A stretch of 64,000 bases of DNA. Source: Cystobacter fuscus. GTDB lineage: Bacteria; Myxococcota; Myxococcia; Myxococcales; Myxococcaceae. Below are positions 5,143 through 60,945 of the stretch, in pieces. The DNA is taken from positions 1,178,001 through 1,242,000 of the forward strand of contig NZ_CP022098.1 of assembly GCF_002305875.1 (NCBI RefSeq). The letters run 5' to 3'. The stretch's first letter is position 1; every line of letters begins with the position of its first letter. The notes under the pieces were generated by a model that saw only the letters and a program-made list of their open reading frames with translations, did no database searches and was not told the origin of the DNA. The position numbers and the translations under genes were made by a program.

Positions 5143-5146
5143 GGCT

Positions 5147-5650: not shown

Positions 5651-5651
5651 G

Positions 5652-7555: not shown

Positions 7556-7568
7556 CGCGAGGGGGCGC

Positions 7569-8713: not shown

Positions 8714-8730
8714 CAGAGTCGAAAAGTTCG

Positions 8731-10405: not shown

Positions 10406-10457
10406 CATGCCCCAGACTCCGAAGGTTCCTGCTGCAACGGGAAGAAGGCGAGCGCAG

Positions 10458-10823
10458 ATGGCGATGAAGACGGTGGTTCCCAGGTATCGGGTCACGACCC
10501 TGGAGGTGAGCTACTCGGGCAGAGCGCTGGTGGTGCGCTGTGAGGTGGTGCCGACGGATCCCTCGTCTGCGATCTCGCTCCTCCTGGTGCGGGTTGACGA
10601 TCCCTCCACGGGGAACATCTACCTCAACCCGTGTGTCATCCAGAACTACGCAACCCCGCCCCCCGCGGGTGCCAGCCTGAACGTGAGCGGCTCCACCCAG
10701 CTCTTCGTGCCCTCGGCGGAGGTCACCCGGGTGCGGGTCGGCTACTTCGGTTTCGTCACCGACCCGCAAGGGGTCTCCTACGACTTCGATGGGGTGCGGA
10801 TCTTCGAACTCTCCCAGGGATAG
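10458..10823 (+). CDS. Hypothetical protein
   Basis: About 121 residues with no recognised domain. Composition is that of a beta-rich soluble protein (RYRVTTLEVSYSGRALVVRCE, alternating hydrophobic strands). There is no signal peptide from this start. ATG 10458 has GAAGAAGG upstream; an in-frame ATG at 10407, one base after the stop of the heme-motif gene, would add 17 basic residues and allow translational coupling. It is convergent with the next gene. The role is unknown; its position suggests co-expression with the heme-motif protein. Confidence 0.55.
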   Translation: MAMKTVVPRYRVTTLEVSYSGRALVVRCEVVPTDPSSAISLLLVRVDDPSTGNIYLNPCVIQNYATPPPAGASLNVSGSTQLFVPSAEVTRVRVGYFGFVTDPQGVSYDFDGVRIFELSQG

Positions 10824-10832
10824 GCCGGCGGC

Positions 10833-11882: not shown

Positions 11883-11895
11883 CGGTGGCCCCCGG

Positions 11896-12399
11896 CTACT
11901 TCGTGACGACCGTGAAGCCGTTGTCGAGGATGGAGAACCACGCGCTCGGGTTCGACACGGTGACCGAGTACACACCGGGGCTGGCACTCACCGGGAGGTT
12001 GAGCCGCGCGGTCAGCGTGGATCCCTGGGCATCCGGCTGGGTCACCCGGATCGTCTGGGCAAGGTAATTGCCATCCTCCCGCTGCAAGGTCACGAACGCG
12101 GTCGAGGCGAAGTAGTCCCCGGTGAGGGTGAGCTCGAGCTGCGTCCCGGCCTCGCCCGTGGTCGGTGACACGGAGTGGATGACGACGCCCCCGGGCTTGC
12201 TCCAGAGCGCCCCGAACAGCGCGCTCTGCGAGATTTCCTGCCCGATCAGCTCGAGGAGCCGCTGACGGTCCCCGTGCTCCAGGGCCTGTCGCGCGTCGGG
12301 AGACAGCTCATAGGAGTCCATCACTCCGGGAGGATCCCGGCTGAACTGCTGCTGGGCGTCGGAATTGTTCAACAGATCCGCGATGAGCTTGACGAGCAA
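11896..12399 (-). CDS. LigA-like N-terminal segment fused to an IPT/TIG-like domain
   Basis: 167 residues. The first about 55 are helical and follow the LigA-like pattern: F-x-x-DP (FSRDPPGVMDSYELSPDARQ), then ALEHGDRQRLLELI. Such segments also occur as N-terminal recognition regions of some RiPP precursors. Residues 70-167 look like a single immunoglobulin-fold IPT/TIG domain (VSPTTGEAGTQLELTLTGDYF, ending FTVV). There is no signal peptide. It lies between a kinase gene (84 nt upstream) and the uncharacterised gene 13 nt downstream. Family labels are from pattern recognition; function is not known. Confidence 0.6.
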   Translation of the reverse strand: MLVKLIADLLNNSDAQQQFSRDPPGVMDSYELSPDARQALEHGDRQRLLELIGQEISQSALFGALWSKPGGVVIHSVSPTTGEAGTQLELTLTGDYFASTAFVTLQREDGNYLAQTIRVTQPDAQGSTLTARLNLPVSASPGVYSVTVSNPSAWFSILDNGFTVVTK

Positions 12400-12483
12400 G
12401 GGCTTCCCTCTCTGGAGAAAACCCTCGTGACGCTATCCAATGGCTGCCGAGACAGCAACGCGTGCGTGGCGCGGCGAGCGGAG

Positions 12484-15400: not shown

Positions 15401-16362
15401 GGGTCGAGCAGACGCACGCAGAGGTCGTCCAGATCCTGGGGAATGCCTTGCAGCAGGGTGGATGGACGCGAAGCGCCCACCCGTTGTTGTGCGAGGCGTT
15501 CGTGCGGTTGGCCCTGGAAGGGCCGCCTTCCCACGAGCGCCTCGAAGAGCATCACCCCCAGGCTGTACCAGTCGCTCGCCGGCGAGGCCTGCTCCCCGGA
15601 CCATTGTTCGGGTGCCATGTATGGCGGTGAGCCCGCCAACTCCTCGGGGGTGGTGTCCAGCGGGGCTGGCTCGAGCTCCTTCGCCAACCCGAAGTCGAGC
15701 ACCACCACGCGGCCGCTCGAGGTGACGATGACGTTGGATGGCTTGAGGTCGCGATGGACGATTCCCTGGGCATGCAGCGTGTGGACGCCCTGGACGAGGT
15801 GGAAGAAGACGGAGCGCAGGCGCTCGGGATCTCCGGTGAAGGTGCCGGGCTCGGACTCGGACCGGGGCTCCTGCTGGGCGGAGGACGAAGAGGAAGACGC
15901 GACAGCCGTTGGCTGCACGAAGCTGACGGTCTCGTCGCTGGAGGATGCGGAGAGGCGTTGCTGGGTCTCCGTGGGAGCCTCCGACAGCGCCGTGATCTCG
16001 GGCTTGAGTGACAACAGCAGGGGGTTGCTGATGTTGACCCGAGCGCTGCTCGTATTGGAGACGTAGGCGTTGAAGTGGCGCCCCTCGACGTACTCCATGG
16101 TGAAGAACCATTGGTCTCCCTCGGAGTGGAGTTCGTAGAGGGTGACCAGGTTGGGGTGCACCAGGTTCGCGAGTAGCCGGAACTCGTGCTTGAAGCGAAA
16201 GACGGCGGACGGGCGGGTCTCGTGCAGCAGCTTGAGGGCCACCACGGTGTTGTAATGGCTGTCCCAGACCTCGTACACGGAGCCAAAAGCTCCCGAGCCC
16301 AAGGGGCGACGGAGTTCGAACCGGCTGTTCCCTTGAAACGAGGATTTCGTCTGCAACAGCAT
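12484..16362 (-). CDS. Ser/Thr protein kinase fused to AAA ATPase and TPR-like repeats
   Basis: A 1292-residue signalling protein. Order of domains: Hanks-type kinase (residues about 15-290, with LGSGAFGSVYEV, VALKLL, HRDLKPSN, DFGLAKE and APEQW), then an AAA_16-type ATPase with Walker A GEPGIGKST and Walker B VVLCLDDLQW, then roughly 600 residues of helical TPR-like repeats. All kinase catalytic residues are present. This layout is common in myxobacterial regulators of the PknK type. There is no transmembrane helix, so it is cytoplasmic. ATG 16362 is chosen because CAGGAG precedes it at good spacing; an upstream Met at 16407 lacks this. It probably heads an operon with the two downstream genes. 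Confidence 0.88.
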   Translation of the reverse strand: MLLQTKSSFQGNSRFELRRPLGSGAFGSVYEVWDSHYNTVVALKLLHETRPSAVFRFKHEFRLLANLVHPNLVTLYELHSEGDQWFFTMEYVEGRHFNAYVSNTSSARVNISNPLLLSLKPEITALSEAPTETQQRLSASSSDETVSFVQPTAVASSSSSSAQQEPRSESEPGTFTGDPERLRSVFFHLVQGVHTLHAQGIVHRDLKPSNVIVTSSGRVVVLDFGLAKELEPAPLDTTPEELAGSPPYMAPEQWSGEQASPASDWYSLGVMLFEALVGRRPFQGQPHERLAQQRVGASRPSTLLQGIPQDLDDLCVRLLDPDPSRRPGHAELVAILQPQGGETQPGVRATYSGQELIGREAELKLLTEAFQRTEAGTLSLVTLEGEPGIGKSTLLRHFTHSLHACGAVVLFGRCYERESVPYKALDDLMDSLGRYLLQLPREQARKLIPPRMHELTRLFPVLVLSAELQPEAPLPAPPAEPFQARQLAVSVLQELLLRLSQHARVVLCLDDLQWGDVDSARFLAELLSPPGAPPLLLITSYRASEARRSAFLVEFEQLLAGSTWQMARSELRLEPLPPEVSAQLAMRRLGTSSLEARTWAEHIARESRGNPLFIEELARAPITEATRGVGASGAVSLGDVLRRRLHGLPEEARHLLELLAVSGRPTSEEVLVEASGNSGSALSSLILLRAHNLLRFHLGGHARLEISHDRVRENVVGQLGASELTTRHRRLAEVLETRADADPEQLAVHFHGAGEPRKAALHALRAAERAQQALAFHRAAELFGAALEWSGGAPEPALGTLGSLKRRRAEALANAGRCREAAPLFLEVAGLGGSPEEVLDNQRRATESYMLGGQIDEGLALVRPMLSQVKLAYGDTHRGALANMLWHRSRLQRRGTTFQEQPALAIAPGHLHRVDLGWSLGKALANVEWIRASGFQLQSLRLALECGEASRIARSLIAFGPVMVWEGSHAALEKGSRYLLEGAAIAERLQQPALIGFAEVYQAACSLVQGEFASGRAHVERGMRLLQQHGVDVIWELNVGRSLGCNLHDAQRSMHGLGLRASEWHRTATELGDSFSRVMSSFYSAFCLVARDEPDNARELVDEAITGWSRTGAIQQYHAFLRTSQADLYQGKPESAWARLEKTWPMLTAAQIFRGQPSRIESHTLRAQLALAMAAEAPERRPELLRQVEEDALQLEKEIRKDCPFLAQLLRAGVARQRGQLEQALVHLSSAIEGYRGLGMSNLEACARWWKGELVGGEEGHALVQEATTLLTADGIHRPRQWAAMVLPGCAP

Positions 16363-16447: not shown

Positions 16448-17500
16448 TCAATCGAGGAATCGTCTCCACCAATGCCGGGCCTCGTCCTCGGTGACACGAA
16501 GCGTGGTGTAGCGGGGCGGATCAACGGACGCCGTGGTTCGCGGTAGGAAGAGTGGCTCGAACCAGGGTTCCATCACCCGGGCGAACTCACGGTACGCGGG
16601 AAGGGTCTCCCCGGTGGTGAGGTCTCCGGCCTCCGGTCGCTCCCCAAGAGAGACAACGACGCGATCCTCGGTGAGTTCCACCAGGGTTGTTCCGGGTGAA
16701 TGCAGCCGGGAACGAAGGGCCGTCGCTCCACCGAGCTGCGTGAGAACAGGCGGTCCGAGGAAGTTGAGCCAATGGACTCCATCCACCCGGAGGCCCACCC
16801 ACTGCTCATGGAACCAGGCGGGCCGGAGGTCGATGCCGGGATGGCGCATGACCTCGGCGCGAAAGCCGACGTCCTTGACCCGGAGGTTCTGGTACAGGTG
16901 AAGGGCCAGTCCCGCGTGCCCGGAGGCGAACATCAGCTTGGAGGCCATGTCGAGCGTCAACTCGCGCACGCGCGCTGGCCCGTGTTCCTCGAGGTACTCA
17001 ATGGGAAGCGTCGCGGTGAGCAAGCTCGCAATCGTCTCCTTGGGGGCAGGCCGCCATGGAATGCGGGCCTGATACTCGAGTTGGTATCCATTCCGACTGT
17101 TGTCGCTCCCGGTGAAGAGGAGGCCTCGCTCAAATCCTTTCTTTTCGATCTCCCTTCGCTCCCAAGGTTCATAATCATCGGGGAAAGACCAGCGTTTCGC
17201 CTCCTTCAGAATGCGGTGAGCCCAACCCCAGCGCTCTTCCGTCAAACGAGAGCCTTCGTCATGGGAGAAGTGAACGTAATTGATGGTCCTTGGCCCCTGA
17301 CCCACCGCGCGCATGTAGCTATCAATGGCATGGCTCACTCCAGAGGAGAGTTCAGGGTGCTCGTGCGGCATGTAGAAGGTGATGCGGATGACCTCTCGTG
17401 CGAGTAACTCCCGCTGTGGGCGCGGAGGCTCTCCGTCGTAGATCTTCCAACGGTCTGACGTCGTGCCGCGAAGACGAAGGCGCGGATAGTGGCTGGTCAT
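16448..17500 (-). CDS. DUF3396-like (type VI immunity family) protein, copy A
   Basis: 350 residues, soluble, without signal peptide. It resembles DUF3396 proteins, several of which are annotated as type VI immunity proteins (inference from overall pattern: the N-terminal [20 protein letters not shown] region and the GHAGLALH segment). Its ATG overlaps the stop of the lipoprotein toxin gene (TGATG), so the two are translationally coupled. Residues from about 125 to the end are practically identical to the second copy, whereas residues 1-125 differ at many positions. The expected role is to protect the cell against the adjacent toxin. The toxin/immunity relation is inferred from gene order and coupling, not shown. 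Confidence 0.75.
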   Translation of the reverse strand: MTSHYPRLRLRGTTSDRWKIYDGEPPRPQRELLAREVIRITFYMPHEHPELSSGVSHAIDSYMRAVGQGPRTINYVHFSHDEGSRLTEERWGWAHRILKEAKRWSFPDDYEPWERREIEKKGFERGLLFTGSDNSRNGYQLEYQARIPWRPAPKETIASLLTATLPIEYLEEHGPARVRELTLDMASKLMFASGHAGLALHLYQNLRVKDVGFRAEVMRHPGIDLRPAWFHEQWVGLRVDGVHWLNFLGPPVLTQLGGATALRSRLHSPGTTLVELTEDRVVVSLGERPEAGDLTTGETLPAYREFARVMEPWFEPLFLPRTTASVDPPRYTTLRVTEDEARHWWRRFLD

Positions 17501-18444
17501 CAGTCAATACCGAGCTGTTTGAGACCGCCCGGGGTCACGAGTGCCACGGGGCATCTGTTGGAGAGTTTCTGGTAGCCCGTCAGTTGTTCCTTCACTAGAG
17601 GCGCGTTCATGGGGTCGAGCCTGTGTTTTTCGTAACAGGGAAACTTGAACTCATAGACACATTGCACATCGGTGGCGTTCCGGGTGGCGTGTACCACGAG
17701 GTCAGGTACAAGAGACTCGGGCCCACCATTCGTGAGGACCACTCCACTGGTATCAGCGTTTCCCTTGTAGCGCGTCTCGATGGAGAAGTTGTCACCGAAC
17801 TCCGTGGAGAGATGGTCTTTGATGCAGGCGAAGGCCGCGCTGTGCTTCAAGATACCGAGTTCCTGAGAGAGGGTGATGGGCCGGCCGCGCTCCGTGAAGC
17901 GCACGGCTCGATCACACTCAGCGTCGTTCGGGAACTTGCCATTCTTGAATTTATACCCCCCGTTCTGCTGCTGGTAGGTCTTGTTGACGTCCGCGTGCGC
18001 CTGCGCCACGCACTCCTTGACGATGCCCTCCAGGCGGTCCAACTCCGCTCCAGTGAGCGCGCGTTCCAGGGTGAGCAAGCCCTTTACGGCTTCGACGGCG
18101 CGAACGACTTTCTCGGTCACCGGACCGAGCCGGGTGGCCGTGGGGGCGAGGAGTTCTCCAGTGCTCGCATTCATGGGGGCGGCACAAGCCGCGCCGCAGG
18201 ATTGGTGGAGTTGAGCGTTCCCACCGGTGAGAGGCCCGCCCCAGGATGCTTGAGGCTGGAGGTGGGCTGGAAAGGGGGGGGTGAGGCGCTGCGGGCGGCT
18301 CTCCAATCGCGGCGAGCCACGAGCCGACCAGTGCGTGGTGGAGCAGGATAGGCAAAGGAGTGCGGCGGCCGAGACAGAGAGAAGACGCCATGTCCGCAGC
18401 AGGGCCTGCCTCCAAGGGGAGCCAATTCGAAGAGAGGACACCAC
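17500..18444 (-). CDS. Lipoprotein toxin candidate (TIGR02269-like) with PD-(D/E)xK motif, copy A
   Basis: 314 residues. The N-terminus is a lipoprotein signal (LLSVSAAALLCLSC, lipobox LCLSC with Cys at about residue 34), then a Pro-rich linker and a helical region. The C-terminal domain contains PDLVVH (Asp248) and YEFKFPC (Glu265, Lys267), spaced like a PD-(D/E)xK nuclease core. The ending resembles the myxobacterial paralogous lipoprotein family TIGR02269. Myxobacterial Sit toxins are lipoproteins passed between kin by outer-membrane exchange, and this gene has that layout: lipoprotein N-terminus, variable C-terminus, immunity gene directly behind. The start is GTG 18444 with GAGG upstream. 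Toxin activity is inferred. Confidence 0.7.
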   Translation of the reverse strand: MVSSLRIGSPWRQALLRTWRLLSVSAAALLCLSCSTTHWSARGSPRLESRPQRLTPPFPAHLQPQASWGGPLTGGNAQLHQSCGAACAAPMNASTGELLAPTATRLGPVTEKVVRAVEAVKGLLTLERALTGAELDRLEGIVKECVAQAHADVNKTYQQQNGGYKFKNGKFPNDAECDRAVRFTERGRPITLSQELGILKHSAAFACIKDHLSTEFGDNFSIETRYKGNADTSGVVLTNGGPESLVPDLVVHATRNATDVQCVYEFKFPCYEKHRLDPMNAPLVKEQLTGYQKLSNRCPVALVTPGGLKQLGID

Positions 18445-19608: not shown

Positions 19609-20661
19609 TCAATCGAGGAATCGTCTCCACCAACGCCGGGCCTCGTCCTCGGTGACACGAAGCGTGGTGTAGCGGGGCGGATCAACGGACGCCGTGGTTC
19701 GCGGTAGGAAGAGTGGCTCGAACCAGGGTTCCATCACCCGGGCGAACTCACGGTACGCGGGAAGGGTCTCCCCGGTGGTGAGGTCTCCGGCCTCCGGTCG
19801 CTCCCCAAGAGAGACAACGACGCGATCCTCGGTGAGTTCCACCAGGGTTGTTCCGGGTGAATGCAGCCGGGAACGAAGGGCCGTCGCTCCACCGAGCTGC
19901 GTGAGAACAGGCGGTCCGAGGAAGTTGAGCCAATGGACTCCATCCACCCGGAGGCCCACCCACTGCTCATGGAACCAGGCGGGCCGGAGGTCGATGCCGG
20001 GATGGCGCATGACCTCGGCGCGAAAGCCGACGTCCTTGACCCGGAGGTTCTGGTACAGGTGAAGGGCCAGTCCCGCGTGCCCGGAGGCGAACATCAGCTT
20101 GGAGGCCATGTCGAGCGTCAACTCGCGCACGCGCGCAGGTCCGTGTTCTTCGAGGTACTCAATGGGAAGCGTTGCGGTGAGCAAGCTCGCAATCGTCTCC
20201 TTGGGGGCAGGCCGCCATGGAATGCGGGCCTGATACTCGAGTTGGTATCCATTCCGACTGTTGTCGCTCCCGGTGAATAGTAAGCCCCTCTCAAAACCTC
20301 GCTTTTCAATCTCCCTTCGATACGGGGCTTCATAATCATCAGGAAAGGACCATCGCTTCGTCGCTTGGAGAATGCGGTGCACCCAGCTCCATCGCTCCGC
20401 GGTCAAGCGGGAGCCTTCATCATGGGACAAATGAACGTAGTTGATGGTCTTGGGCCCCTGTCCTACCGCGCGTATATAGCTGTCGATGGCGTGGCTCACC
20501 CCCGAAGCGAGTTCAGGGTGGTCGTGCGGCATGTAGAACGCGATGCGGATGACTTCGCGTGCGAGCAGCTCTCGTGGCGGACGTGGGGGCTCCCCGTCGT
20601 AGAACTTCCAACGGTCCGAAGTCGTGCCACGAAGACGCAGACGGGGGTAATGGCTGGTCAT
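19609..20661 (-). CDS. DUF3396-like (type VI immunity family) protein, copy B
   Basis: 350 residues, a paralogue of the copy A immunity candidate. From about residue 125 ([16 protein letters not shown]) to the end the two proteins are identical except near the C-terminus (ARRWW instead of ARHWW). In the first 125 residues they differ at roughly 20 positions (for example [15 protein letters not shown] against [15 protein letters not shown], and [13 protein letters not shown] against YEPWERREIEKKG). The ATG at 20661 overlaps the toxin stop. The changes lie in the part adjacent to the variable toxin end, as expected if this region determines recognition of the cognate toxin. Confidence 0.75.
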
Positions 20662-21605
20662 CAATCAATACCAAGTTGTTTGAGCCCGACCGGGGTTATG
20701 AGTGCCACGGGACACCGATGGGACAATTCCTGGTAGTTTGTTAGTTGAAGCTTCACTCCAGGCGCGTTAATGGGACTGAGCCGGTGTTGCTCATGGCAGG
20801 GAAACTTGAACTCGTAGACACATTGTATGTTGGTGGCATTCCGGGTGGCGTGGATCACGAGATCAGGCACGAGGGACTGGGGTCCCTCATTCGTGAGGAC
20901 GACGCCGTTGGAGCCAGGGTTGCCCTTATAGCGGGGCTCGACCGAGAAGTTGTCTCCGAATTCCTTGGAGAGGTGGCTCTTGATACAGGCAAAGGCGGCT
21001 CCGTGCTTCAGGATGCCGAGTTCCTGCGCGAGGGTGGTGGACTGTCCCTGCTCCGTCAACTGCACGATCCGATCACACTCGGCGTCGTTCGGGAACTTCC
21101 CATTCTTGAACTTGAACCCCCCGTTCTGCTGCTGGTAGGTCTTGTTGACGTCCGCGTGCGCCTGCGCCACGCACTCCTTGACGATGCCCTCCAGGCGGTC
21201 CAACTCCGCTCCAGTGAGCGCGCGTTCCAGGGTGAGCAAGCCCTTTACGGCTTCGACGGCGCGAACGACTTTCTCGGTCACCGGACCGAGCCGGGTGGCC
21301 GTGGGGGCGAGGAGTTCTCCAGTGCTCGCATTCATGGGGGCGGCACAAGCCGCGCCGCAGGATTGGTGGAGTTGAGCGTTCCCACCGGTGAGAGGCCCGC
21401 CCCAGGATGCTTGAGGCTGGAGGTGGGCTGGAAAGGGGGGGGTGAGGCGCTGCGGGCGGCTCTCCAATCGCGGCGAGCCACGAGCCGACCAGTGCGTGGT
21501 GGAGCAGGATAGGCAAAGGAGTGCGGCGGCCGAGACAGAGAGAAGACGCCATGTCCGCAGCAGGGCCTGCCTCCAAGGGGAGCCAATTCGAAGAGAGGAC
21601 ACCAC
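20661..21605 (-). CDS. Lipoprotein toxin candidate (TIGR02269-like) with PD-(D/E)xK motif, copy B
   Basis: 314 residues with the same signal peptide and first 160 residues as copy A. The C-terminal domain differs at about a quarter to a third of positions but keeps the putative catalytic residues (PDLVIH, YEFKFPC) and the last residues GLKQLGID. Conservation of the motif with change around it fits a toxin under diversifying selection. The start is GTG 21605 with the same upstream region as copy A. As for copy A, nuclease and toxin activity are inferred. Confidence 0.7.
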   Translation of the reverse strand: MVSSLRIGSPWRQALLRTWRLLSVSAAALLCLSCSTTHWSARGSPRLESRPQRLTPPFPAHLQPQASWGGPLTGGNAQLHQSCGAACAAPMNASTGELLAPTATRLGPVTEKVVRAVEAVKGLLTLERALTGAELDRLEGIVKECVAQAHADVNKTYQQQNGGFKFKNGKFPNDAECDRIVQLTEQGQSTTLAQELGILKHGAAFACIKSHLSKEFGDNFSVEPRYKGNPGSNGVVLTNEGPQSLVPDLVIHATRNATNIQCVYEFKFPCHEQHRLSPINAPGVKLQLTNYQELSHRCPVALITPVGLKQLGID

Positions 21606-33254: not shown

Positions 33255-33716
33255 ATGAAGCCCCGGATGAATGCTTTCGCGGTCGCGCCGGACGCCCTCA
33301 ATCTCATGGTGGATTTCAGCCAGAAGGTGGAGGCCCTGGGGCTGGAGCCGAGCCTCCGCGAGCTCGTCAAGATCCGCTCGTCCCAGCTCAATGGCTGCGC
33401 CTTCTGCATCCACATGCACACCCGCGACGCCCGCGCACATGGGGAGACCGAGGAGCGCATCTACCTTCTGGACGGCTGGCGTGAGTCGCCGCTGTACACC
33501 GACCGCGAGCGGGCGGCCCTGGGCTGGACCGAGGCCCTGACGCTCGTCTCCACGACACATGCCCCGGATGAGGACTACGCTGCGCTCAAGCCGCACTTCA
33601 CCGAAGAGGAGATCGTGAAGCTGACCCTCATGATTGGCGTCATCAACACCGCGAACCGGCTCGTCCTCGGCTTCCGGGCCGTGCACCCGGTGACCCCTCG
33701 CAGTGAAGCCGCCTGA
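33255..33716 (+). CDS. Carboxymuconolactone decarboxylase / AhpD-like protein
   Basis: 153 residues. The AhpD-like core is present: LRELVKIRSSQLNGCAFCIHMH, with the CxxC (Cys-Ala-Phe-Cys) and downstream His typical of peroxidase-active members. Such proteins reduce hydroperoxides or act as thiol oxidoreductases. It is the standard genomic partner of ECF41 sigma factors, and the sigma gene overlaps its 3' end by 14 nt. GAGG lies before ATG 33255, and the ECF41-like promoter is directly upstream. Confidence 0.9.
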   Translation: MKPRMNAFAVAPDALNLMVDFSQKVEALGLEPSLRELVKIRSSQLNGCAFCIHMHTRDARAHGETEERIYLLDGWRESPLYTDRERAALGWTEALTLVSTTHAPDEDYAALKPHFTEEEIVKLTLMIGVINTANRLVLGFRAVHPVTPRSEAA

Positions 33717-52364: not shown

Positions 52365-52704
52365 GCGTATAGGCAGGATAGAGGCCGTGTTGAGGGGGAG
52401 GGCTGGTGCAGAGGGGCCGAGGAGGGCCGAGGACGAGCGCAGAGGGGGACATGTGGGCTGTGTGCCAAGCCGGTGGAGAGGCCGCGCAGCCACTGTGGGG
52501 TACACGCCTCCCCCAGCCGCCTTCCCAGGAGGGGCGCGGCAGGTGCCTGGCTGTCATGGCTGGCTGTGGCGGCTTGAGCTTCAACACCACGCGCTCTGGG
52601 GCGGCCCTCGCGCAGGGGCCAGGTGCGCACTCGCCGTGGGCAACCCCAGGTGCTCCAGAATCGCTCTCGCCCCTCCTGCTCCCTTCAGGACGGCATCGAC
52701 ACAC
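52365..52704 (-). mobile_element. IS91-like element, terminus side (split by transposon)
   Basis: Begins GCGTATAGGCAGGAT, followed by the same non-coding terminus as copies 2 and 3. The minus strand encodes the final residues of the transposase (52581 to about 52690: GARAILEHLGLPTA, LAPARGPPQSAWC). It continues on the other side of the inserted transposon at 55279, where the reading frame carries the upstream part ([11 protein letters not shown]). Confidence 0.75.
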
Positions 52705-52734
52705 TGCCACGGGTCCGCCACCCTTATTTGAGCA
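52705..52734 (+). repeat. Left terminal inverted repeat of the recombinase transposon
   Basis: TGCC...CCACCCTTATTTGAGCA. The last 11 bases (TTATTTGAGCA) are exact in the right end on the opposite strand, and most of the CCAC part agrees. Confidence 0.7.
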
Positions 52735-52735
52735 C

Positions 52736-53179
52736 GTGGCCGTAACGCTGCCGGTCCACCCCCTCAAGGGCGTGATGCTGCCGGTCGCCCGGTTCATCCG
52801 CAGCCAGGACGGTCGGCGCTACGTCGACGTGGAGTACCCTCCCGGCCGGTACATGCGACTGCCGCTCGAGTGGACGGACCGCTCCCCACCCCTCGTTCCG
52901 CCGAGCGTCGGTGGTCGCGCAGTCCGCCTCTCCGTCCCCGTTCTGCTCAAGCTTGCCAGCGCAGTGCAGGTGGCGCTCGGTCGCCCCCAGGGCTCATCAA
53001 CCGCGCCCCTGTCCCACGGTGGACCTACGTTGACACATGCCAACGTGTCCACCCCAGAAATCCGGCCCGCCGTGGTCGGCACTGCCCGTGGCGGCAAGGC
53101 AGCAACTGCTCGGCACGTGGGCCGCCCTGCTGCACAAGGCGCTGCGCGCCGAAACCGTAGACGCGGAGGAAGGCGATGA
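52736..53179 (+). CDS. DUF5372-like protein of the recombinase element
   Basis: About 147 residues from GTG 52736. The first 75 carry the recognisable pattern: VTLPVHPLKG, RFIRSQDGRR, GRYMRLPLEWTD. This is like the short DUF5372 proteins that accompany recombinase genes of this class. The last 60 residues are Arg/Ala rich and overlap the small ORF in another frame, so the true end may be earlier. Its role in transposition is unknown. Confidence 0.5.
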   Translation: MAVTLPVHPLKGVMLPVARFIRSQDGRRYVDVEYPPGRYMRLPLEWTDRSPPLVPPSVGGRAVRLSVPVLLKLASAVQVALGRPQGSSTAPLSHGGPTLTHANVSTPEIRPAVVGTARGGKAATARHVGRPAAQGAARRNRRRGGRR

Positions 53180-53258
53180 ACGACAAGGTTCGAGCCACGC
53201 ATCTGGAGCGTCGAGCGGTGGTGTATCTGCGCCAGTCCACGCTCAGTCAGGTCCATGA
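53037..53258 (+). CDS. Small accessory ORF of the recombinase element
   Basis: 73 residues. The middle (WSALPVAARQQLLGTWAALLHKALR) resembles the short ORF often found between DUF5372 and recombinase genes in such elements. It overlaps the recombinase start by about 80 nt. It may help recombinase expression by coupling; the function is not known. Confidence 0.45.
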   Translation: MPTCPPQKSGPPWSALPVAARQQLLGTWAALLHKALRAETVDAEEGDERQGSSHASGASSGGVSAPVHAQSGP

Positions 53259-55284
53259 GCATCGTGAGTCCACGGCCCGTCAGTACGCCCTGCGCCAGCG
53301 TGCTCTGGAGCTGGGCTGGCCGCCCGAGCGCATTGAGATAATCGATGAAGACATGGGCCAGAGCGGTACGAGCGCGGACTGGCGGGCGGGCTTCCAGCGC
53401 ATGGCCGAGGAGGTCGCGCACGGACGCGTCGGCGCCATCTTCTCGCTGGAAGTCTCTCGCCTGGCGCGCTCCTCGGCGGACTGGCACCGGCTGCTGGACT
53501 TGTGCGGCCTGGCCGACGTGGTGCTGGTCGATGAACAGGCCGTCTACACTCCGCGCGACTACAATGACCGGCTGCTGCTGGGCCTCAAGGGCACCATGAG
53601 CGAAGCCGAGTTGTACTGGATGCGTTTGCGCTTGCAGGGCGGCAAGCTGTCCAAGGCACGGCGTGGTGCCCTCCACATCACGCCGCCCGTGGGCTATGAG
53701 TGGGAGGAGACAACGAGCCGGTTTCGCTTCGACCCCGACGAAGGGGTGCAGCGAGCCGTGCGCCTTGTTTTCGAGCGCTTTCGCCTGGAGGGCAGCGCCT
53801 ATGCCGTGCTGCGCTACTTCATGAAGAACGGGTTGAAGCTGCCCGTGCGAGAGCCGGGCACGCACCAATTGCACCCGGAGCCACCGCGCTACACCCTGCT
53901 GCTCTCCATGCTCCACAACCCCACCTACGCCGGTGCCTATGTCTTCGGGCGCAATGAGAGGCACATGGCGCTGGTGGACGGACAGTTGCGGCGCCAGCGC
54001 CGTACGCGTTTGCCGCGGGAAGCATGGAAGGTATGCCTGAAGAACCACCACCCGGCCTACATCAGCTGGGAGGAATACGAAGCCAACCAGAAGAGGCTCG
54101 CTACCAACCATCCCAGCTACCAGCAGCCGGACCAACGCGGTGCTGTCCGCGAAGGGAGCGCTCTGTTGCAGGGGCTGGTGCTCTGTGGCCGGTGCGGTCA
54201 CCGGATGCAGACGGCCTACCGGGAGTCCGGGCATCCGTACTACGAGTGCCGCCGCATCACCGACAAGGGCATGTGCTGGACGGTGTCGGCCGCAGGCATT
54301 GACGAGGCAGTCGCCCGACTCTTTCTGGAGACAGTCCAGCCTCCGGAGATTGAGCTGGGCCTGGCCATCACCCGGGAGGTGGAACGGCAGGCCCAGGAGG
54401 TAGGGCGTCAGTGGAAGCTGCGGCTGGAGCGGGCGCACTACGAGGCGCAACTGGCCGAGCGCCGTTACAAGGCGGTGGACCCGGACAACCGCGTGGTGGC
54501 CCGCACGCTGGAGCGTGAGTGGAACGAGAAGCTGGGCGAGTTGGAGGTGCTCGAGCGCGAGCACCAGCAGGTACTGCGGCGCGAGAAGGTGGAACTCACG
54601 AGCCAGGACAGAGCACGCCTGCTCGAACTGGCCAAGGACTTGTCGTACGTCTGGCACGCACGGAGCACGACGAATGCCGAGCGCAAGAACCTGCTGCGGA
54701 TTCTGGTGCGAGAGGTGGCGCTCAGCCCTGTGGAAGTCCCGGAGCGCGGGATTCACATCCAGGTGCTATGGCAGACCGGTGCGTGCAGCGACCTGACCAT
54801 TGCACGCCGCCCTTCCTACACGAGGGCTACCTCACCCGAGACCATCAAGCTCATTGGCACACTGGTGGAGCAGAAGAGGACCGATAGGGAGATAGCGGCT
54901 GAGCTGAACCGAAGGGGGCTGCTCTCCGGAGTCAAGCGCGCCTGGGACAAGCAAGCGGTGCGCTGGGTGCGCAGGCGCTACGGCATCCACCGCCAGCCGG
55001 TGGGACGACGGCGAGGACGGCCTCGACAGCCGGAGCGCCGGGCTGACGGCCTGTACTCAACGCACGGTGTCGCCGCACTGCTGGATGTTACTGAGACAAT
55101 GGTGCGCACCTGGGTCGAGAAGGGCTGGCTGCGATGTGTCGAGGGCGGCGGTCCGGGCACCCCTCGGTGGTACAAGCTCGATCGCTCGACACTCAAGCGG
55201 CTGAGGGCCGCCAAGGCCCAGGGAAATGGCTCCAGCGGACGCGGAGCTGCTCAAATAAGTGTGGAGGAAGGTGGGGCATTATGA
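53176..55284 (+). CDS. Large serine recombinase
   Basis: 702 residues. The resolvase catalytic domain has [11 protein letters not shown] with the nucleophile Ser21, then [16 protein letters not shown] and [15 protein letters not shown] Recombinase domain (about 190-300) and a zinc-ribbon follow (CGRCGHRM, then YECRR and CW, near residues 335-370), then a long coiled-coil (about 400-480). The C-terminus adds a MerR-like HTH ([20 protein letters not shown]). All these are typical of large serine recombinases that mobilise elements between short sites. The HTH addition distinguishes it from phage integrases. It lies in a TIR-bounded element and appears intact. Confidence 0.92.
55248..55278 (-). 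repeat. Right terminal inverted repeat of the recombinase transposon
   Basis: On the minus strand: TGCCCC...CCACACTTATTTGAGCA, matching the left end (TTATTTGAGCA exact). Confidence 0.7.
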
Positions 55285-56130
55285 GGAGGCCATCAGGTAC
55301 GCCAACACCCGCCGCCTGCCTCCACACCTCAAGCACGCGAACACATCCAGGGCGAACGTCCTGCGCAGCAGCCCGGCCCAGTCCAAACGGGGTGTGGGCT
55401 CCTTCCTCCGCTCCTGCACCGTCGCGGCAAAGGCGGGGCTCTCCTCCTCCAGCCCCGGCTCCGCCCCTGCTTGAGGGAGCAGAAATGGACGCACTTTCGC
55501 GCCTGGGGCAAAGACGCCGTGGAACCTCGTCAGGTTTGCCCTCGGAGGAGGCACCAGGCTGGCCAGCCGGCGGAGCAGCTCCAGCCCGGTGAAGAGCAGA
55601 TGCGTCGTGCCGTCCGGCAGCGGGCGCTTCATGCGGTAGGCGATGCGGCCATCCTCCGCTCGTGACAAACGCTCCAGTGCCAGCGCACCGCGTGCTCCGT
55701 AGCGGCATAGCCGCTCCAACCCGTGCCTGTCGTTCGCATGCAGGTGCGTATTGGCGTGCAGGGAAAAGCCCTCCAGGAAGGCGCACCGGGGCTGTTTTCG
55801 GGGAGGGAGCCGCACATCCACCTCCGTCCAGCGCAGCCGCTTCTGTAGTGAGTGCGCCTGGTGTGTCTGCAGCGCGTCCTCGGGCCCTTGCGCGGGCAGG
55901 GCCCCTCTTTTCTCCAGCAGGCGCAGCACCCGGTGCCGCACCACCCGCAGCAGTCGCTCCACCTCTGCTTGCGTGGGCGGAGGCAACGGCTCGAAGCGCA
56001 CGCCGCCCTCCCGCGGCACGAAAACACCGTCCGGCACCAGCGAGTGGAAGTGCGGTGTCACCTGCAACGCCGAGCCGAAGAACTGGATGAACGACACGGC
56101 CCCGACCTGCCCACGACGGATACCCTGCCT
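55279..56130 (-). pseudogene. IS91-family transposase, N-terminally truncated
   Basis: About 280 residues in one frame. The HUH-type region is seen as [22 protein letters not shown] (H-F-H with flanking hydrophobics). Downstream come [20 protein letters not shown] and the C-terminal zinc-ribbon-like [14 protein letters not shown]. The N-terminal zinc-binding and start region is missing: near 56130 the sequence changes to a cytochrome c remnant. The C-terminal end lies at 52581-52690 beyond the inserted transposon. Rolling-circle transposition would not be possible from this copy. Confidence 0.8.
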
Positions 56131-56390
56131 CCGCGCTCGCCGCCTACGTGACCGCGGAAGATGCCTTCGCCTCCTCGCCGTACCGCAGGGCCAACGGCGT
56201 GCTGACCGGTGAGGCCGTCCAGGGGGGAAGGCGGTGTTCGGATCCGCCGGCTGTGCCAACTGCCATGGCGGCCCCCACTTCACCGTCAGCGCCAACGCGG
56301 CGGCGATGAAGAAAGGATCGCAACCGGCCAGCAGCGGACGGCCGGGATGCCGGCCGTCGCCCGGCACGCCTGACGACATGCAAGGGCGGT
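56130..56390 (+). pseudogene. Cytochrome c C-terminal remnant, frameshifted
   Basis: The plus strand reads [20 protein letters not shown] then, after a shift at a G run (about 56220-56226), [20 protein letters not shown]. The CxxCH (CANCH) is a c-type heme site as in di-heme cytochromes. The frame ends near 56390, 10 bp before the LysR gene. Both ends are cut. Confidence 0.6.
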
Positions 56391-56397: not shown

Positions 56398-57291
56398 CTA
56401 AGGGGCGAATCCCGCGGAGCGCATGGACAGGTCGCAATGCTCGATCAGGAGTTCGGTCAGCACCCGGATCTTCCGTGCGGGATGCTGACCCGGCGGTCGA
56501 ACCACGTACGCACCCGCCGCGGGTGGTGGATGCCGCGTCATGACGGGCACGAGGGCTCCGGAGGCCACGTGTTTGTCGGTGAGCCAGTCGGGCAGGAGCG
56601 CGATCCCGATGCCCGCTGTCGCAGCCGCGAGCAGCGCCACGCCGTTGTCGGCCTTGAAGCGTCCCTGCGGACGAACCGTGATGACCTCGTCGCCGTCCAT
56701 GAACTGCCAGGTCTCGGTGCCCTGCATCAGGCACTGGTGAGCGAGCAGCTCCTGCGGGGTCTCGGGCGACCCGTGCGCCTGGACATAGGCCGGGCTCGCG
56801 ACGAGCTTCGCGTGGATCGTGGCGATGCGTCGTGCGATCAGGTTGGAGTCCTGGATGTATCCCACCCGTATCGCGCAGTCGTACCCTTCGGCGATGAGAT
56901 CGACGAAGCGATCGCTGTAGCAGGTCTGGATGTGAAGCTGGGGGTGGCGTCGCGCCATTTCCGCGAGCACGGGAGCGAAATGAGTCAGGCCGAAAGACAG
57001 TGGCGCGGCCACACGAAGGCGTCCGCGAAGGTCACCGGCGGGAAGGAGCGTCTCCCTTGCCGCGTCGAGCTCGGCGCACACCCTGGCGGCGTGGTCACGG
57101 AACGTGGCCCCGGCCTCCGTGAGCGCAGCCCCCCGGGTGGATCGGGTCAGCAGCTGGACGCCGAGTTCCCCTTCGAGACGGACGAGCCGACGGCTGACGA
57201 TCGACTTGGACACGCCGAGCCGCACTGCCGCGGGCGAGACCCCGCCGGCATCAGCCACCTCCACAAACGTTCGCAGATCTTCGTCGTCCAA
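56398..57291 (-). CDS. LysR family transcriptional regulator
   Basis: 297 residues. The HTH begins LRTFVEVADAGGVSPAAVRL, followed by GVSKSIVSRRLVRLE. The effector domain shows LRVAAPLSFG, LIAEGYDCAIRVG and AGIGIALLPDWL, typical of the subgroup that controls nearby oxidoreductase or hydrolase genes. The probable start is TTG 57291; longer upstream reading is noise. It is divergent from the isochorismatase-like gene with 148 bp between the starts, so it probably regulates that gene. Confidence 0.85.
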   Translation of the reverse strand: MDDEDLRTFVEVADAGGVSPAAVRLGVSKSIVSRRLVRLEGELGVQLLTRSTRGAALTEAGATFRDHAARVCAELDAARETLLPAGDLRGRLRVAAPLSFGLTHFAPVLAEMARRHPQLHIQTCYSDRFVDLIAEGYDCAIRVGYIQDSNLIARRIATIHAKLVASPAYVQAHGSPETPQELLAHQCLMQGTETWQFMDGDEVITVRPQGRFKADNGVALLAAATAGIGIALLPDWLTDKHVASGALVPVMTRHPPPAAGAYVVRPPGQHPARKIRVLTELLIEHCDLSMRSAGFAP

Positions 57292-57439
57292 CTCAGCGTT
57301 CCACTTTCCGCGACACAGCTCGCCACGCAGTCGTACTACCGCGTCGAGCTCCAGAACGCCACATTGAGTCTCCCAGCGGCGTTGTCGCTGGCGCACCACT
57401 CCATCACCCACTTCGCCACAACGGCACAAGGATGCTCCG

Positions 57440-58093
57440 ATGACTTTCCGCAACGGCCTCTCTTCGCTTCTTCGTCCCGAGGACTCGGTCCTCGTCCTGA
57501 TCGACCACCAGCCGTTCCAGCTCGCGAACGTGAACAGCCACGATCCGCACCTGGTGGTCAACAATGCAACGGCCTTGGCGAAGGCCGCCAAGGCCTATGG
57601 CGTCCCGACCATTCTGACGAGCGTGATCGCCGAGCGAGGCGGCCTCCTCTTCCCGCAGATCACCGATGTCTTCCCGGGCCAGAAGGTGATCGACCGGACG
57701 TTCATCAACACCTGGGAGGACCGGAAGGTCGTGGACGCGGTCAAGGCCACGGGGCGCAAGCAGCTGATCATCGCGGGCCTGTATACGGAGGTCTGTGTCG
57801 CCATGCCGGTGATCCATGCCCTCGGCGAGGGCTGGGATGTGACGGTGATCACCGATGCGTGTGGCGCCTTTTCGGTGGAGGCGCATCAGGTGGCCATCCA
57901 ACGCATGATCGCGGCTGGCGCCAACATGATGACGTGGCTGGCACTCGTGTCCGAATGGCAGCGCGATCACGCTCGGACGGCGCACGTGGCTGAATTCGTC
58001 GACCTGCTCAAGCAGCATGCGGCTGGCCTCGGCATTGCGTTCCTGTGGGAGCAGCAGTTGCTCAACACGCCCGTGCCTGGCAAGGCAGCATGA
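57440..58093 (+). CDS. Isochorismatase-like cysteine hydrolase
   Basis: 217 residues. Catalytic triad of the isochorismatase-like hydrolases: Asp22 in LVLIDHQ, a Lys in the middle of the fold, and Cys119 in TEVCVAMP. The C-terminal IQRMIAAGANMMTWL segment is typical of the subgroup often annotated as YcaC-like hydrolases. No signal peptide. It lies divergent to a LysR gene that probably controls it. The substrate is unknown. The three-gene BacA-type operon follows 200 bp downstream but is separated by a palindrome and likely has its own promoter. Confidence 0.88.
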   Translation: MTFRNGLSSLLRPEDSVLVLIDHQPFQLANVNSHDPHLVVNNATALAKAAKAYGVPTILTSVIAERGGLLFPQITDVFPGQKVIDRTFINTWEDRKVVDAVKATGRKQLIIAGLYTEVCVAMPVIHALGEGWDVTVITDACGAFSVEAHQVAIQRMIAAGANMMTWLALVSEWQRDHARTAHVAEFVDLLKQHAAGLGIAFLWEQQLLNTPVPGKAA

Positions 58094-58202: not shown

Positions 58203-58226
58203 ACTTCTCGGACACGTCCGAGAAGT
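58203..58226 (+). promoter_or_regulatory. Perfect palindrome upstream of the BacA-type operon
   Basis: ACTTCTCGGAC-AC-GTCCGAGAAGT is an 11-bp perfect inverted repeat with a 2-nt centre, 68 nt before the aminotransferase start. The small centre suits a dimeric regulator better than a terminator hairpin. Confidence 0.6.
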
Positions 58227-58293
58227 CACGCAATCCATTTCGCCCGGCGCCGCGCGATGTCATTTCCCGACTCCTGCTGGAGATTGTGCCGTC

Positions 58294-59589
58294 ATGCTCG
58301 AATTGCCTTTGGACACACTGCACGGGGCGCTGGCCGACCCGGTGCTGTTGTCAATGAATCTGCTCAATGACATCGCGAGCAATCATCCGGATGCCATTTC
58401 ATTCGCCGCGGGCAGACCCTTCGAGGAACTGTTCCAGGTGAATCAGTTGCACGAATACCTGGATGCCTTCGTGGCCCACCTGACCCAGGACCTCGAGCAG
58501 AGCGCCGCGCAGGTGCGGCGCACCTTGTACCAGTATGGACGGACCAAGGGCGTCATCCACCATCTGGTCGCGAAGTACCTCGAGGTCGACGAGGGCATCC
58601 GGGTCGATCCGGAGTCCATCGTGGTGACGGTGGGCGCCCAGGAAGCGATGTTCCTGGTGCTCAGGGCCCTGCGGACGGATGCGAGTGACGCCGTATTGGC
58701 CGTGATGCCGGCCTATTTCGGGCTCACGGGCGCGGCGCGGCTGCTCGACATGCCCGTGGTCCCGGTCGCCAGCGGCCCCCACGGCATCGATCTCGACGAC
58801 CTGGGGCGCCAGCTGGCCGCCACGCGGAAGCGGGGCCTGCGGACGCGGGCGTTGTACCTGGTTCCTGATTTCTCCAACCCGACCGGCATCAGCCTCGATC
58901 TGACCACCCGGCGGCGGTTGCTCGACATCGCCGCGGAACACGAGCTGTTGTTGATCGAGGACGACGCCTATGGCCTGTTCCACGCCGATCCCAACAACCG
59001 GCTGCCCACGCTCAAGGCGCTCGACACCGGGCGGGTCGTGCTCCACATCGGCTCGTTCGCCAAGACGGGACTGCCCGGTGCTCGTGTGGGTTTCGTCATC
59101 GCCGATCAGCCGGTGACGCAGGAGGGCGTCGTCGTGGGGTCGCTCGCGGATCAACTGTCGTTGATCAAGAGCAATGTCACGCTCAACACCTCACCGGTCG
59201 CGCAGGCGATCGTCGGAGGAAAGCTGTTGCGCAACGGGTACAGCATGCTCGCCGCCAACAAACGCGAGATCGAAATCTATCGGCTCAACCTCCGGCGAGT
59301 GCTCGCCGGACTCGCCAGGCGCTTCCCCGCGGGCGGACCGGTCAGCTGGAACACGCCGGGCGGAGGGTTCTTCATCGTGGTGACGGTGCCCTTTCCGGTG
59401 GATGACAAGTCCTTGGAGCGCTCGGCACGCGAACACGGAGTCATCTGGACGCCGATGCACCACTTCTACGCGAACCAGGACCACTCCCATCAGATCCGGT
59501 TGTCCTTCAGCCTGCTCACCCCGGAATTGATTGACGAGGGACTGGATCGGCTGGCCGGGTTCGTCGCCGCGGAGTCCAAGCTGCCATGA
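58294..59589 (+). CDS. PLP-dependent aminotransferase, HpgT-like
   Basis: 431 residues, fold type I. The PLP lysine lies in GSFAKTGLPG (Lys257), with VPDFSNPTGISL and LLLIEDDAYGLF supplying the cofactor pocket. The N-terminal LHGALADPVLLSMNLLND and SFAAGRPF segments and the end RLSFSLLTPELIDEGL resemble 3,5-/4-hydroxyphenylglycine transaminase HpgT, which makes arylglycines for glycopeptide antibiotics. Its stop overlaps the start of the Dabb gene (ATGA), and the BacA-like gene follows. It probably aminates the keto acid produced by this pathway. GGAG lies 12 nt before the ATG. Confidence 0.85.
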   Translation: MLELPLDTLHGALADPVLLSMNLLNDIASNHPDAISFAAGRPFEELFQVNQLHEYLDAFVAHLTQDLEQSAAQVRRTLYQYGRTKGVIHHLVAKYLEVDEGIRVDPESIVVTVGAQEAMFLVLRALRTDASDAVLAVMPAYFGLTGAARLLDMPVVPVASGPHGIDLDDLGRQLAATRKRGLRTRALYLVPDFSNPTGISLDLTTRRRLLDIAAEHELLLIEDDAYGLFHADPNNRLPTLKALDTGRVVLHIGSFAKTGLPGARVGFVIADQPVTQEGVVVGSLADQLSLIKSNVTLNTSPVAQAIVGGKLLRNGYSMLAANKREIEIYRLNLRRVLAGLARRFPAGGPVSWNTPGGGFFIVVTVPFPVDDKSLERSAREHGVIWTPMHHFYANQDHSHQIRLSFSLLTPELIDEGLDRLAGFVAAESKLP

Positions 59590-59879
59590 TCAGACACATC
59601 GTGTTGTTCAAGTTCAAACCGGGAATCACCTGGCGGGAGCCCGATGCGCTCGCCGCCGAGCAGTCGTCGCACCAGGTCGGGGAACGGGTGCCGGACCTGC
59701 TGCACTGGCAGGCGGGGCGCAACATCAGCCGCCGGGATATCGCGCATGACTTCGCGGTGATCGGCCTGCTCCATGACCAGGAGGCCTTGCAGCGCTATCT
59801 GGATCACCCCTTCCACCAGGAGTCGGCCGCGCGGTGGCGCGAGATCAGCACCTGGGTCATCGCGGACATCGAGGAGTGA
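59586..59879 (+). CDS. Dabb (stress-responsive dimeric alpha/beta barrel) protein
   Basis: 97 residues. The family pattern is MIRHIVLFKFKPGIT at the N-terminus and DFAVIGLLHDQEALQRYLDHP with a conserved His pair (DHPFHQE) in the middle. Dabb proteins are small dimeric ferredoxin-like barrels; relatives include olivetolic acid cyclase and other small-molecule isomerases or cyclases. The gene overlaps the aminotransferase by 4 nt and lies 7 nt before the BacA-like gene. It may replace the cupin BacB isomerase in this pathway; that is inference. Confidence 0.85.
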   Translation: MIRHIVLFKFKPGITWREPDALAAEQSSHQVGERVPDLLHWQAGRNISRRDIAHDFAVIGLLHDQEALQRYLDHPFHQESAARWREISTWVIADIEE

Positions 59880-59886
59880 GAGCGCC

Positions 59887-60459
59887 ATGACGAACCTTGG
59901 TTGGGTGAGCCTGGTGGACAGGCACACGGCCGACGTGGTGGTCGGTACACTGGGACCCCCCGGCACCAGCAGCGAACAAGCGGCCCATCTGCTCCGCTCG
60001 AGGCTGCGGCGGGAGTCCCGCACCGAGCTGTACCAGACGTACGAGCAGGCGTACGAAGAGCTGCGCTCGGGCGCGTTGACCCACGTGGTCGTCGCCAATG
60101 CCTACAAGGAAATCCACCGCTTCTACATGGATGACTCGCTCGTGCTGTCGGACGTGTTCGTGATGGACACCCCTCTCTACGGCATCGCGAAGAGACAGGA
60201 CCGGGAGGGGCTGTCCGCCGTGCCGACCATCGCGAGTCATCCATCACCCAAGCCGCTGGTGGCCCAGCTCCTCCCCAGCGGATTCCGGGTCGGAGAGATC
60301 GTCAGCGTGGATTCGACCAGCAGCGCCGCGAAGGCCGTCGCCGAGGGAGCGTTCGATCTGGCCTTGACCACGGAGCCCGCGGCGGCGCTCTATGGCCTGG
60401 AGTTCATCTCCCGAAAACGTCCGATCCGGATGGTGTGGTCGGTCTTCGTGCGCTCCTGA
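59887..60459 (+). CDS. BacA-like prephenate decarboxylase
   Basis: 190 residues, close to the usual 200 of BacA. BacA of bacilysin synthesis removes CO2 from prephenate without aromatisation, giving dihydro-4-hydroxyphenylpyruvate. Shared pattern: TLGPPGTSSEQAA, YKEIHRFYMDDS, MDTPLYGIA, ASHPSPKPLV, DSTSSAAKAVAEG and ALYGLEFI, each with a BacA counterpart in the same order. Prephenate dehydratases share the fold but not these segments. ATG 59887 follows the Dabb gene by 7 nt with GAGGAGTGAG upstream. The product should feed a non-aromatic amino acid in the same operon. Confidence 0.9.
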   Translation: MTNLGWVSLVDRHTADVVVGTLGPPGTSSEQAAHLLRSRLRRESRTELYQTYEQAYEELRSGALTHVVVANAYKEIHRFYMDDSLVLSDVFVMDTPLYGIAKRQDREGLSAVPTIASHPSPKPLVAQLLPSGFRVGEIVSVDSTSSAAKAVAEGAFDLALTTEPAAALYGLEFISRKRPIRMVWSVFVRS

Positions 60460-60660: not shown

Positions 60661-60945
60661 ATGTCAACACCACGCGGGCTGGGGTGGCCCTCGTGCCGGG
60701 GCCAGGCTCGCACCTGCCGTGGGCAAGCCCAGGTGCTCCAGAATCGCCCGCACCCCGGAAGCCCCCTTCACGTACGCAAATACACTCCGCCGGCCTCCAC
60801 ACCTCACGCAGGCGAACACGTCGAAGTCGAACGTCCTCCTGAGCATCTCTGCCTGGTCCACTCGCGGTGTCCTCTCCTTCATCCGCTCCTTCCTGGCCGC
60901 TGCCTCATGCCCCGCGCTCGCCTCCTCCTCACCTGCTTGAGGGAA
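60661..60945 (-). mobile_element. IS91-like transposase C-terminal fragment 5
   Basis: The minus strand encodes the last 94 residues of the transposase (60664-60945), including RTFDFDVFACVRCGGRR, AILEHLGLPTA and LAPARGPPQPAWC. The terminus is absent. The left end falls three bases before the stop codon and the right end at PQAG, the same internal point as copy 2. Confidence 0.75.

Follow-up and report, generated by a model that had tools for sequence, protein, structure and literature searches.

A three-gene operon encoding an HpgT-like aminotransferase, a Dabb protein and a BacA-type protein in Cystobacter fuscus, a small variant of prephenate-decarboxylase pathways

Known prephenate-decarboxylase pathways and the operon of C. 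fuscus

Prephenate decarboxylases supply the pathways to bacilysin, aeruginosins, salinosporamide and dihydrophenylalanine. In the 2,5-dihydrophenylalanine pathway of Photorhabdus the decarboxylase and a transaminase are encoded in one locus, which we take to be plu3042-3044. The same pairing occurs in a 64,000-nucleotide (nt) stretch of Cystobacter fuscus DNA (NZ_CP022098.1, positions 1,178,001 to 1,242,000; hereafter the window, with position 1 as its first letter), where a gene for a Dabb-family protein stands between the aminotransferase gene and the gene for a BacA-type protein.

The closest described systems include the Photorhabdus pathway (Crawford, 2011, as cited in PMC5897657) and bacilysin synthesis by BacA and BacB, for which Bacillus subtilis is a model producer (PMC9147277); further prephenate-decarboxylase cases are those of suomilide (PMC10157211) and salinosporamide (PMC2866466). 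The passages of these four articles that deal with them mention no Dabb protein. The operon resembles the bacilysin/anticapsin pathway (bacA-G) in having a BacA-type first enzyme and an aminotransferase, and differs from it in that BacB, an ATP-grasp ligase, a short-chain dehydrogenase/reductase (SDR) and an exporter were not found in the window. No paper was found that joins the term Dabb with prephenate, and among the papers listed, mainly openly available ones, none describes such a gene set; a first reading made from the DNA letters alone (the sequence-only reading) likewise knew of none. The elements of the operon are the following:

58203-58226, no strand: perfect inverted repeat with 11-nt arms and a 2-nt spacer, 67 nt 5′ of the aminotransferase gene, a candidate operator
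58294-59589, plus strand: class I pyridoxal phosphate-dependent aminotransferase, HpgT-like, 431 aa (Pfam Aminotran_1_2 PF00155, E 5.4e-33)
59586-59879, plus strand: Dabb-family dimeric alpha/beta-barrel protein, 97 aa (Pfam Dabb PF07876, 62.5 bits; cut-off 25)
59887-60459, plus strand: protein of 190 aa resembling prephenate decarboxylases of the BacA type (Pfam PDT, 37.1 bits; cut-off 25.2)

The three open reading frames (ORFs) lie on the plus strand, the aminotransferase stop and the Dabb start share an ATGA overlap, and 7 nt separate the Dabb gene from the BacA-type gene, so that the tight coupling claimed by the sequence-only reading was borne out. Position 58203 is the first base of the inverted repeat and no gene starts there. 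When the bases of the upstream gap (200 nt) were shuffled singly 3000 times, an equally good repeat arose once. The remaining matches of the repeat across the 12.35-Mb single-contig genome have three mismatches each, and it was not seen 5′ of the Streptomyces scopuliridis copy described below.

In two S. scopuliridis strains, genes for an aminotransferase, a Dabb protein and a BacA-type protein are found on plasmids in the order of the window, with identities to the first of these plasmids of 71% (aminotransferase), 74% (Dabb) and 58.5% (BacA-type protein). The check whether the trio is conserved together, proposed with the sequence-only reading, thus had a positive outcome: since the same genes recur in the same order in two strains, the set is more than chance, and since they do so on Streptomyces plasmids it is conserved across phyla. 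The operon is a real, conserved and new small variant of prephenate-decarboxylase pathways.

On balance we consider it somewhat probable that the operon was acquired laterally and encodes a minimal pathway to a prephenate-derived non-proteinogenic amino acid. We infer that the BacA-type protein would take CO2 off prephenate without aromatisation, giving dihydro-4-hydroxyphenylpyruvate (H2HPP), that the Dabb protein would act on H2HPP by acid-base catalysis through His77 and Tyr71, in the likeliest case shifting a double bond of the ring or fixing its position before transamination, and that the HpgT-like aminotransferase would aminate the 2-oxo acid. The most likely product would be 2,5-dihydrotyrosine or a double-bond isomer of it (C9H13NO3, calculated [M+H]+ 184.097).

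A Dabb protein is a recurrent partner of the BacA clade

A search of 72,556 plasmid records with the window Dabb protein gave matches in 18 at E≤1e-5, and these were exactly the 18 records that rank best for the BacA-type protein, the two genes of each pair lying at most 4.8 kb apart by their coordinates. The independent plasmid cases are fewer than 18, because many of the records are near-copies of one another (seven of the S. goshikiensis type, four from Pantoea and two from S. scopuliridis). Among genomes, the core BacA clade was defined by a profile match at E≤1e-55, the next match standing at 1e-30, and comprised 19 genomes (16 of 392 of the genus Streptomyces, two of the 394 of the class and one of the 396 of the phylum); a Dabb gene was present in the fetched stretch of 16 of them. 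In the 14 fetched loci of weaker BacA-like proteins no Dabb gene was found. The association of Dabb with this BacA clade is a recurrent one.

The company that the pair keeps is varied. Dabb accompanies a class IV (IlvE-type), an HpgT-like or another class I aminotransferase, and it is found with or without BacB. In Streptomyces-type clusters composed of PaaK, class IV aminotransferase, BacA, OCD, DUF1330 and PhzF genes (L011, L050, L051, L108, L110 and L113), the BacA-type protein is 50-57% identical to that of the window and a Dabb gene is part of the cluster; these clusters differ from the operon in having many more genes and another aminotransferase class, and two annotated cases lie beside nonribosomal peptide synthetase (NRPS)/polyketide synthase genes. 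In the gammaproteobacterial relatives, on plasmids of Pantoea, Pseudomonas and Photobacterium, the Dabb gene is joined by genes for DUF2000, a PaaK-type ligase, a carboxymuconolactone decarboxylase (CMD)-family protein, OCD and LysE, none of which was found beside the window operon. That Dabb travels with the BacA clade in minimal operons and large clusters alike, with BacB or without it, suggests an overlooked step or helper in these pathways, and genes for a BacA-type and a Dabb protein side by side could be a compact marker for mining unusual tyrosine-like amino acids.

BacB and Dabb occur together in two anticapsin-type clusters (L016 and L059), and in a third locus (L160, G277:C1:1203000-1221000, positions 8218-9295) a BacB gene is directly followed by a cluster-type Dabb gene, with no BacA gene in the stretch. 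The idea, raised in the sequence-only reading, that Dabb replaces BacB did not hold generally and was rejected as a rule on account of these three loci.

Several of these loci have features of their own. L016 (plasmid of Streptomyces sp. ADI95-16, positions 8304-15616) and L059 each hold genes for BacA, a BacB cupin, two SDRs, an MFS protein, a class I aminotransferase and Dabb; in L016 an ene-reductase gene lies ahead of the BacA gene and no BacD-type ligase is annotated. L160 appears to be a truncated biosynthetic cluster, with an ORF after the Dabb gene that reads as transposase-like from its sequence. On the Pseudomonas aeruginosa plasmid pNY8709-IMP (L014, positions 4738-10847) we observed a complete cluster of Dabb, DUF2000, ligase, aminotransferase, BacA, CMD, OCD and LysE genes, which resembles the clusters of the Pantoea and Photobacterium plasmids. 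Two divergent BacA-like groups come without Dabb: an actinobacterial one beside a PaaK-type ligase gene (L060-L062, L064, L065, L116-L118 and L121), and one in which GTNLE replaces GTSSE and class IV aminotransferase genes lie in the stretch (L063 and L066-L069).

The Dabb protein may act on dihydro-4-hydroxyphenylpyruvate

The AlphaFold2 model of the Dabb protein (predicted local distance difference test score, pLDDT, 97.5) has an alpha/beta-barrel fold, for which the nearest match is 3bgu (Z 15.6, root-mean-square deviation (rmsd) 1.5, 95 residues aligned). The nearest folds with a named enzymatic role are PeHNL (Z 13.7, rmsd 2.0, 95 aligned, 16% identity) and olivetolic acid cyclase (OAC; Z 13.3, rmsd 2.2, 95 aligned, 19% identity), followed by methylmuconolactone methylisomerase and SnoaB. 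H4, Y71 and H77 of the Dabb protein align with H5, Y72 and H78 of OAC, in a sequence match that is weak by itself (E about 1, numbering offset our own), and the fold match gives the same OAC register at the Dabb N-terminus. OAC has been described as using His78 and Tyr72 as acid-base catalysts (PMC8156804). The operon differs from the OAC setting in having no polyketide genes, and polyketide cyclisation is not proposed here.

Across the 24 cluster Dabb proteins H4, W41, N46, R50, D55 and H77 are kept in all and Y71 in 23; among all 50 Dabb proteins compared, W41, N46, R50, W84, W90, D94 and H77 are kept in every one and Y71 in 49. The role that we favour for the Dabb protein, by analogy, is that of a putative isomerase or tautomerase on H2HPP, because the OAC-like His/Tyr pair together with the invariant N46, R50 and D55 would fit proton transfer on a small carboxylate. 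More broadly, we suggest tentatively, and with a little less than even confidence, that the BacA-associated Dabb proteins are enzymes of this kind which would provide a second control over double-bond position, non-homologous to the BacB cupin, and that the trio would be its smallest complete form, leading to a new dihydrotyrosine isomer. If this is true, a Dabb route occurs in Streptomyces, in Gammaproteobacteria and in a single myxobacterium. For a test of the Dabb step, hardly any system could be smaller than the three-gene operon.

A less likely account, to which we would give roughly one chance in a few, is that the Dabb protein is a protective or scaffold partner, which binds the unstable keto acid, or else the aminotransferase, and averts formation of the exocyclic isomer, so that two enzymes make plain 2,5-dihydrotyrosine. 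A route through BacA and a transaminase has been reported before (PMC5897657), and a general helper fits the varied aminotransferase classes and the presence or absence of BacB in the clusters. The conservation of H77, Y71, N46, R50 and D55 in the cluster Dabb proteins, however, goes beyond what a scaffold needs, and the fold neighbours OAC, PeHNL and methylmuconolactone methylisomerase act on small molecules, OAC by acid-base chemistry.

The aminotransferase and the size of the product

Two enzymes with homologues of DpgA, DpgB and DpgC encoded beside them, from S. cellulosae and Nonomuraea gerenzanensis, share 57% identity with the aminotransferase, and the enzyme of the S. globosus pheganomycin locus shares 46%, over nearly the full length. 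The window aminotransferase is 24% identical, over 139 aa, to the aminotransferase of a Streptomyces anticapsin-type cluster. The genomic context of the relatives was viewed in four of 151 plasmid records, besides those of S. scopuliridis. Because these relatives lie in Dpg and pheganomycin loci, the label HpgT-like given by the sequence-only reading is a fair one. The operon differs from the dihydroxyphenylglycine loci in having no DpgA-D genes alongside the aminotransferase gene, its partners being the BacA-type and Dabb genes.

HpgT takes its amino group from tyrosine, so that a keto acid like 4-hydroxyphenylpyruvate (HPP) belongs to the natural substrate class of such an enzyme. The sequence-only reading had pointed to the action of HpgT-like enzymes on arylglyoxylates. 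A C8 substrate of that type would need a chain-shortening enzyme, which is missing from the operon; a C9 product of the dihydrotyrosine type is simpler. The C8 alternative holds that the operon leads to a C8 cyclohexadienylglycine, similar to phenylglycine, with the Dabb protein aiding side-chain shortening in the manner of the cofactor-free monooxygenases. HpgT-type enzymes do aminate arylglyoxylates, the closest relatives of the window enzyme belong to two dihydroxyphenylglycine loci, and the Dabb fold matches include the cofactor-independent oxygenase SnoaB. We nevertheless regard it as improbable, since the operon has no HmaS/Hmo-like gene and the annotation around its S. scopuliridis counterpart shows none, an HpgT-type enzyme with tyrosine as donor already binds HPP-like keto acids, and related Dabb proteins elsewhere go with a class IV or another class I aminotransferase.

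The BacA-type protein differs from ordinary prephenate dehydratases

The query for the BacA-type protein matched 82 plasmid records, of which the 18 best-ranked were used; they show 39-60% identity to the window protein, and nine of them bear the annotation "bacilysin biosynthesis protein BacA". The 64 lower-ranked records include 58 from Phaeobacter; two of the 64, those for which values were listed, show 32-34% identity. No relatives were found among viral contigs and phages. The third protein is accordingly classed as BacA-type by way of its annotated relatives, not by direct comparison with the characterised BacA, AerD or SalX. The sequence search recognised no solved structure of a BacA-type protein. 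The AlphaFold2 model (pLDDT 92.0) has a fold of the prephenate dehydratase (PDT) type, with the prephenate dehydratase 3mwb as best match in the PDB (Z 17.3, rmsd 2.7, 170 aligned).

The threonine of the TRF motif is catalytic in prephenate dehydratase. When aligned to Escherichia coli PheA, which has the motif, none of the 26 core BacA members shows TRF; the window protein reads K177-R178-P179 at this site and the sister protein of S. scopuliridis L-R-P, the column being somewhat uncertain because a 9-residue gap in the PheA alignment directly precedes the motif. The PIEN motif is missing from the window protein, no ACT domain was matched by Pfam and the chain ends after the PDT domain. Two complete prephenate dehydratases with TRF are encoded elsewhere in the genome, at 3.64 Mb. 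The third protein is no ordinary dehydratase, because it lacks ACT, PIEN and TRF and two true dehydratases exist elsewhere; these points and its kinship with BacA uphold the first assignment as BacA-like. Prephenate dehydratase was also tried as an identity for this protein and rejected on the same motifs, the missing ACT domain and the two true PDTs. A further alternative, in which a degenerate dehydratase would give phenylpyruvate and the operon would merely make phenylalanine, is very improbable, for although the PDT score lies above its cut-off and the fold is that of a prephenate dehydratase, K177 replaces the catalytic threonine, all three hallmarks are missing, the genome already has two complete dehydratase genes and the relatives lie in secondary-metabolite clusters.

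Chromosomal Dabb paralogues and evidence against the proposed pathway

The Dabb subfamily is not confined to BacA clusters. A tree was built from the 24 cluster copies and 26 others, which were taken from loci of top-scoring genomes plus L017 and are not a random draw. Twenty-five of the 26 form one clade (100/100) apart from the cluster copies, and residue 60 is G in all 24 cluster copies and S in all 25 members of this chromosomal clade. The remaining one (L134/L160) clusters with the cluster copies and adjoins a BacB gene whose product is 60% identical to the BacB of L016; its stretch holds NRPS- and carbamoyltransferase-like genes, labelled by sequence reading. Exclusive use of this Dabb subfamily with BacA was considered and rejected, as the chromosomal Streptomyces paralogue keeps the same conserved residues.

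Several observations weigh against the pathway proposed above. The same-subfamily chromosomal Dabb is common in Streptomyces (173 of 219 genomes at E≤1e-10, a few cluster copies included), and in the one case viewed (L159, G098:C10, about 9360-9650) no pathway genes adjoin it. The conserved Dabb residues are common to both groups, and therefore do not single out H2HPP as the substrate. B. subtilis, one of 14 control genomes and entered there without a strain name, gave no Dabb match, so that BacA chemistry does not require a Dabb protein. Three of the 19 core genomes have no Dabb gene in the fetched stretch: in G098 it lies 42 kb off, in a region that also encodes a P450 with 82% identity to one of the WZ-12 cluster, in G930 none was seen in that stretch, and in G698 the BacA gene sits on an 8.6-kb contig. 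As to the operon itself, the S. scopuliridis aminotransferase and Dabb genes are separated by 237 nt, with 3 nt between the Dabb and BacA genes there. The aminotransferase also has a relative with 56% identity (L128) whose cluster contains no Dpg genes. Finally, the Thr-Arg of TRF (T-R-x) is kept in 17 of the 26 core BacA members, the window protein not among them, which also speaks for the dehydratase alternative.

The L159 Dabb gene lies near sigma-factor-like, deaminase-like and upp-like genes, again labelled by sequence reading, which give no functional hint.

Probable lateral acquisition of the operon

In a tree of BacA-type proteins the window and S. scopuliridis sequences are sisters (98/93), and the pair adjoins eight actinobacterial rows (85/58, a node not starred; a long-branch warning applies elsewhere in the tree). 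At E≤1e-12 a BacA-type match was obtained in one of 195 Myxococcota genomes, the window's own. Weak matches (E 1.7e-6 to 9.8e-4) occurred in seven others of 98 relatives, and all four of those seven that were aligned have TRF. The simplest reading is lateral transfer, with an actinobacterium, apparently a Streptomyces-like one, as candidate donor, which is consistent with the presence of the trio in the window's own genome only among the 195. The G+C content of the operon genes (0.646-0.654, against 0.667 for the window) is no argument for transfer by itself, because the difference is too small.

A mobile-element gene lies upstream of the operon:

55282-56379, minus strand: IS91-like (Y2) transposase gene

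A segment of 139 nt of the IS91-like transposase sequence recurs downstream of the operon at 60765-60903 with 76% identity, and a second repeat of 128 nt (79%) joins 52581-52708 with 60664-60791. A serine recombinase gene is located at 53176-55284.

The rest of the window

The window was searched by tblastn (E≤1e-3) with 11 kinds of pathway protein taken from related clusters, namely BacB cupin, PaaK-type ligase, OCD, PhzF, DUF1330, DUF2000, LysE, EamA, MFS, ene-reductase and SDR, and no match was obtained in the 64 kb beyond the trio; in the next 20 kb downstream the sole match was a generic SDR (34%) about 8 kb 3′ of the operon. A Pfam scan of 44 window ORFs, chosen by length (≥120 aa) and G+C bias, made at E≤1e-5 for 37 of them, found no ATP-grasp, AMP-binding, cupin, MFS, EamA or LysE family. 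BacB was not matched in the window or in the 20 kb downstream by a query that recovers locus L160 at 60%, nor was it matched genome-wide, in a search that had no positive control. A BacD-type ATP-grasp ligase was absent from the 44 scanned ORFs, in a search confined to the window, and BacC/BacG-type reductases were likewise missing from the window. As far as tested by tblastn and Pfam, the first observation that BacB, ligase and exporter are lacking here stands. The S. scopuliridis copies do carry a divergent EamA transporter gene.

Just 5′ of the operon lie genes for a LysR-type regulator (56401-57591, minus strand) and an isochorismatase-family hydrolase (57440-58093, plus strand), neither of which is annotated beside the S. 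scopuliridis copy. A carboxymuconolactone decarboxylase-family gene at 33255-33713, 25 kb from the operon and amid sigma-factor and glyoxalase-type genes, showed no match to the same-family proteins of the Pantoea or Pseudomonas clusters. Farther away, two TsiV-family genes (type VI immunity for VRR-NUC) at 16451-18444 and 19612-21605, both on the minus strand, appear to be a tandem duplication; they have equal Pfam scores, each adjoins a 314-aa ORF, and a Fic-family ORF lies between them.

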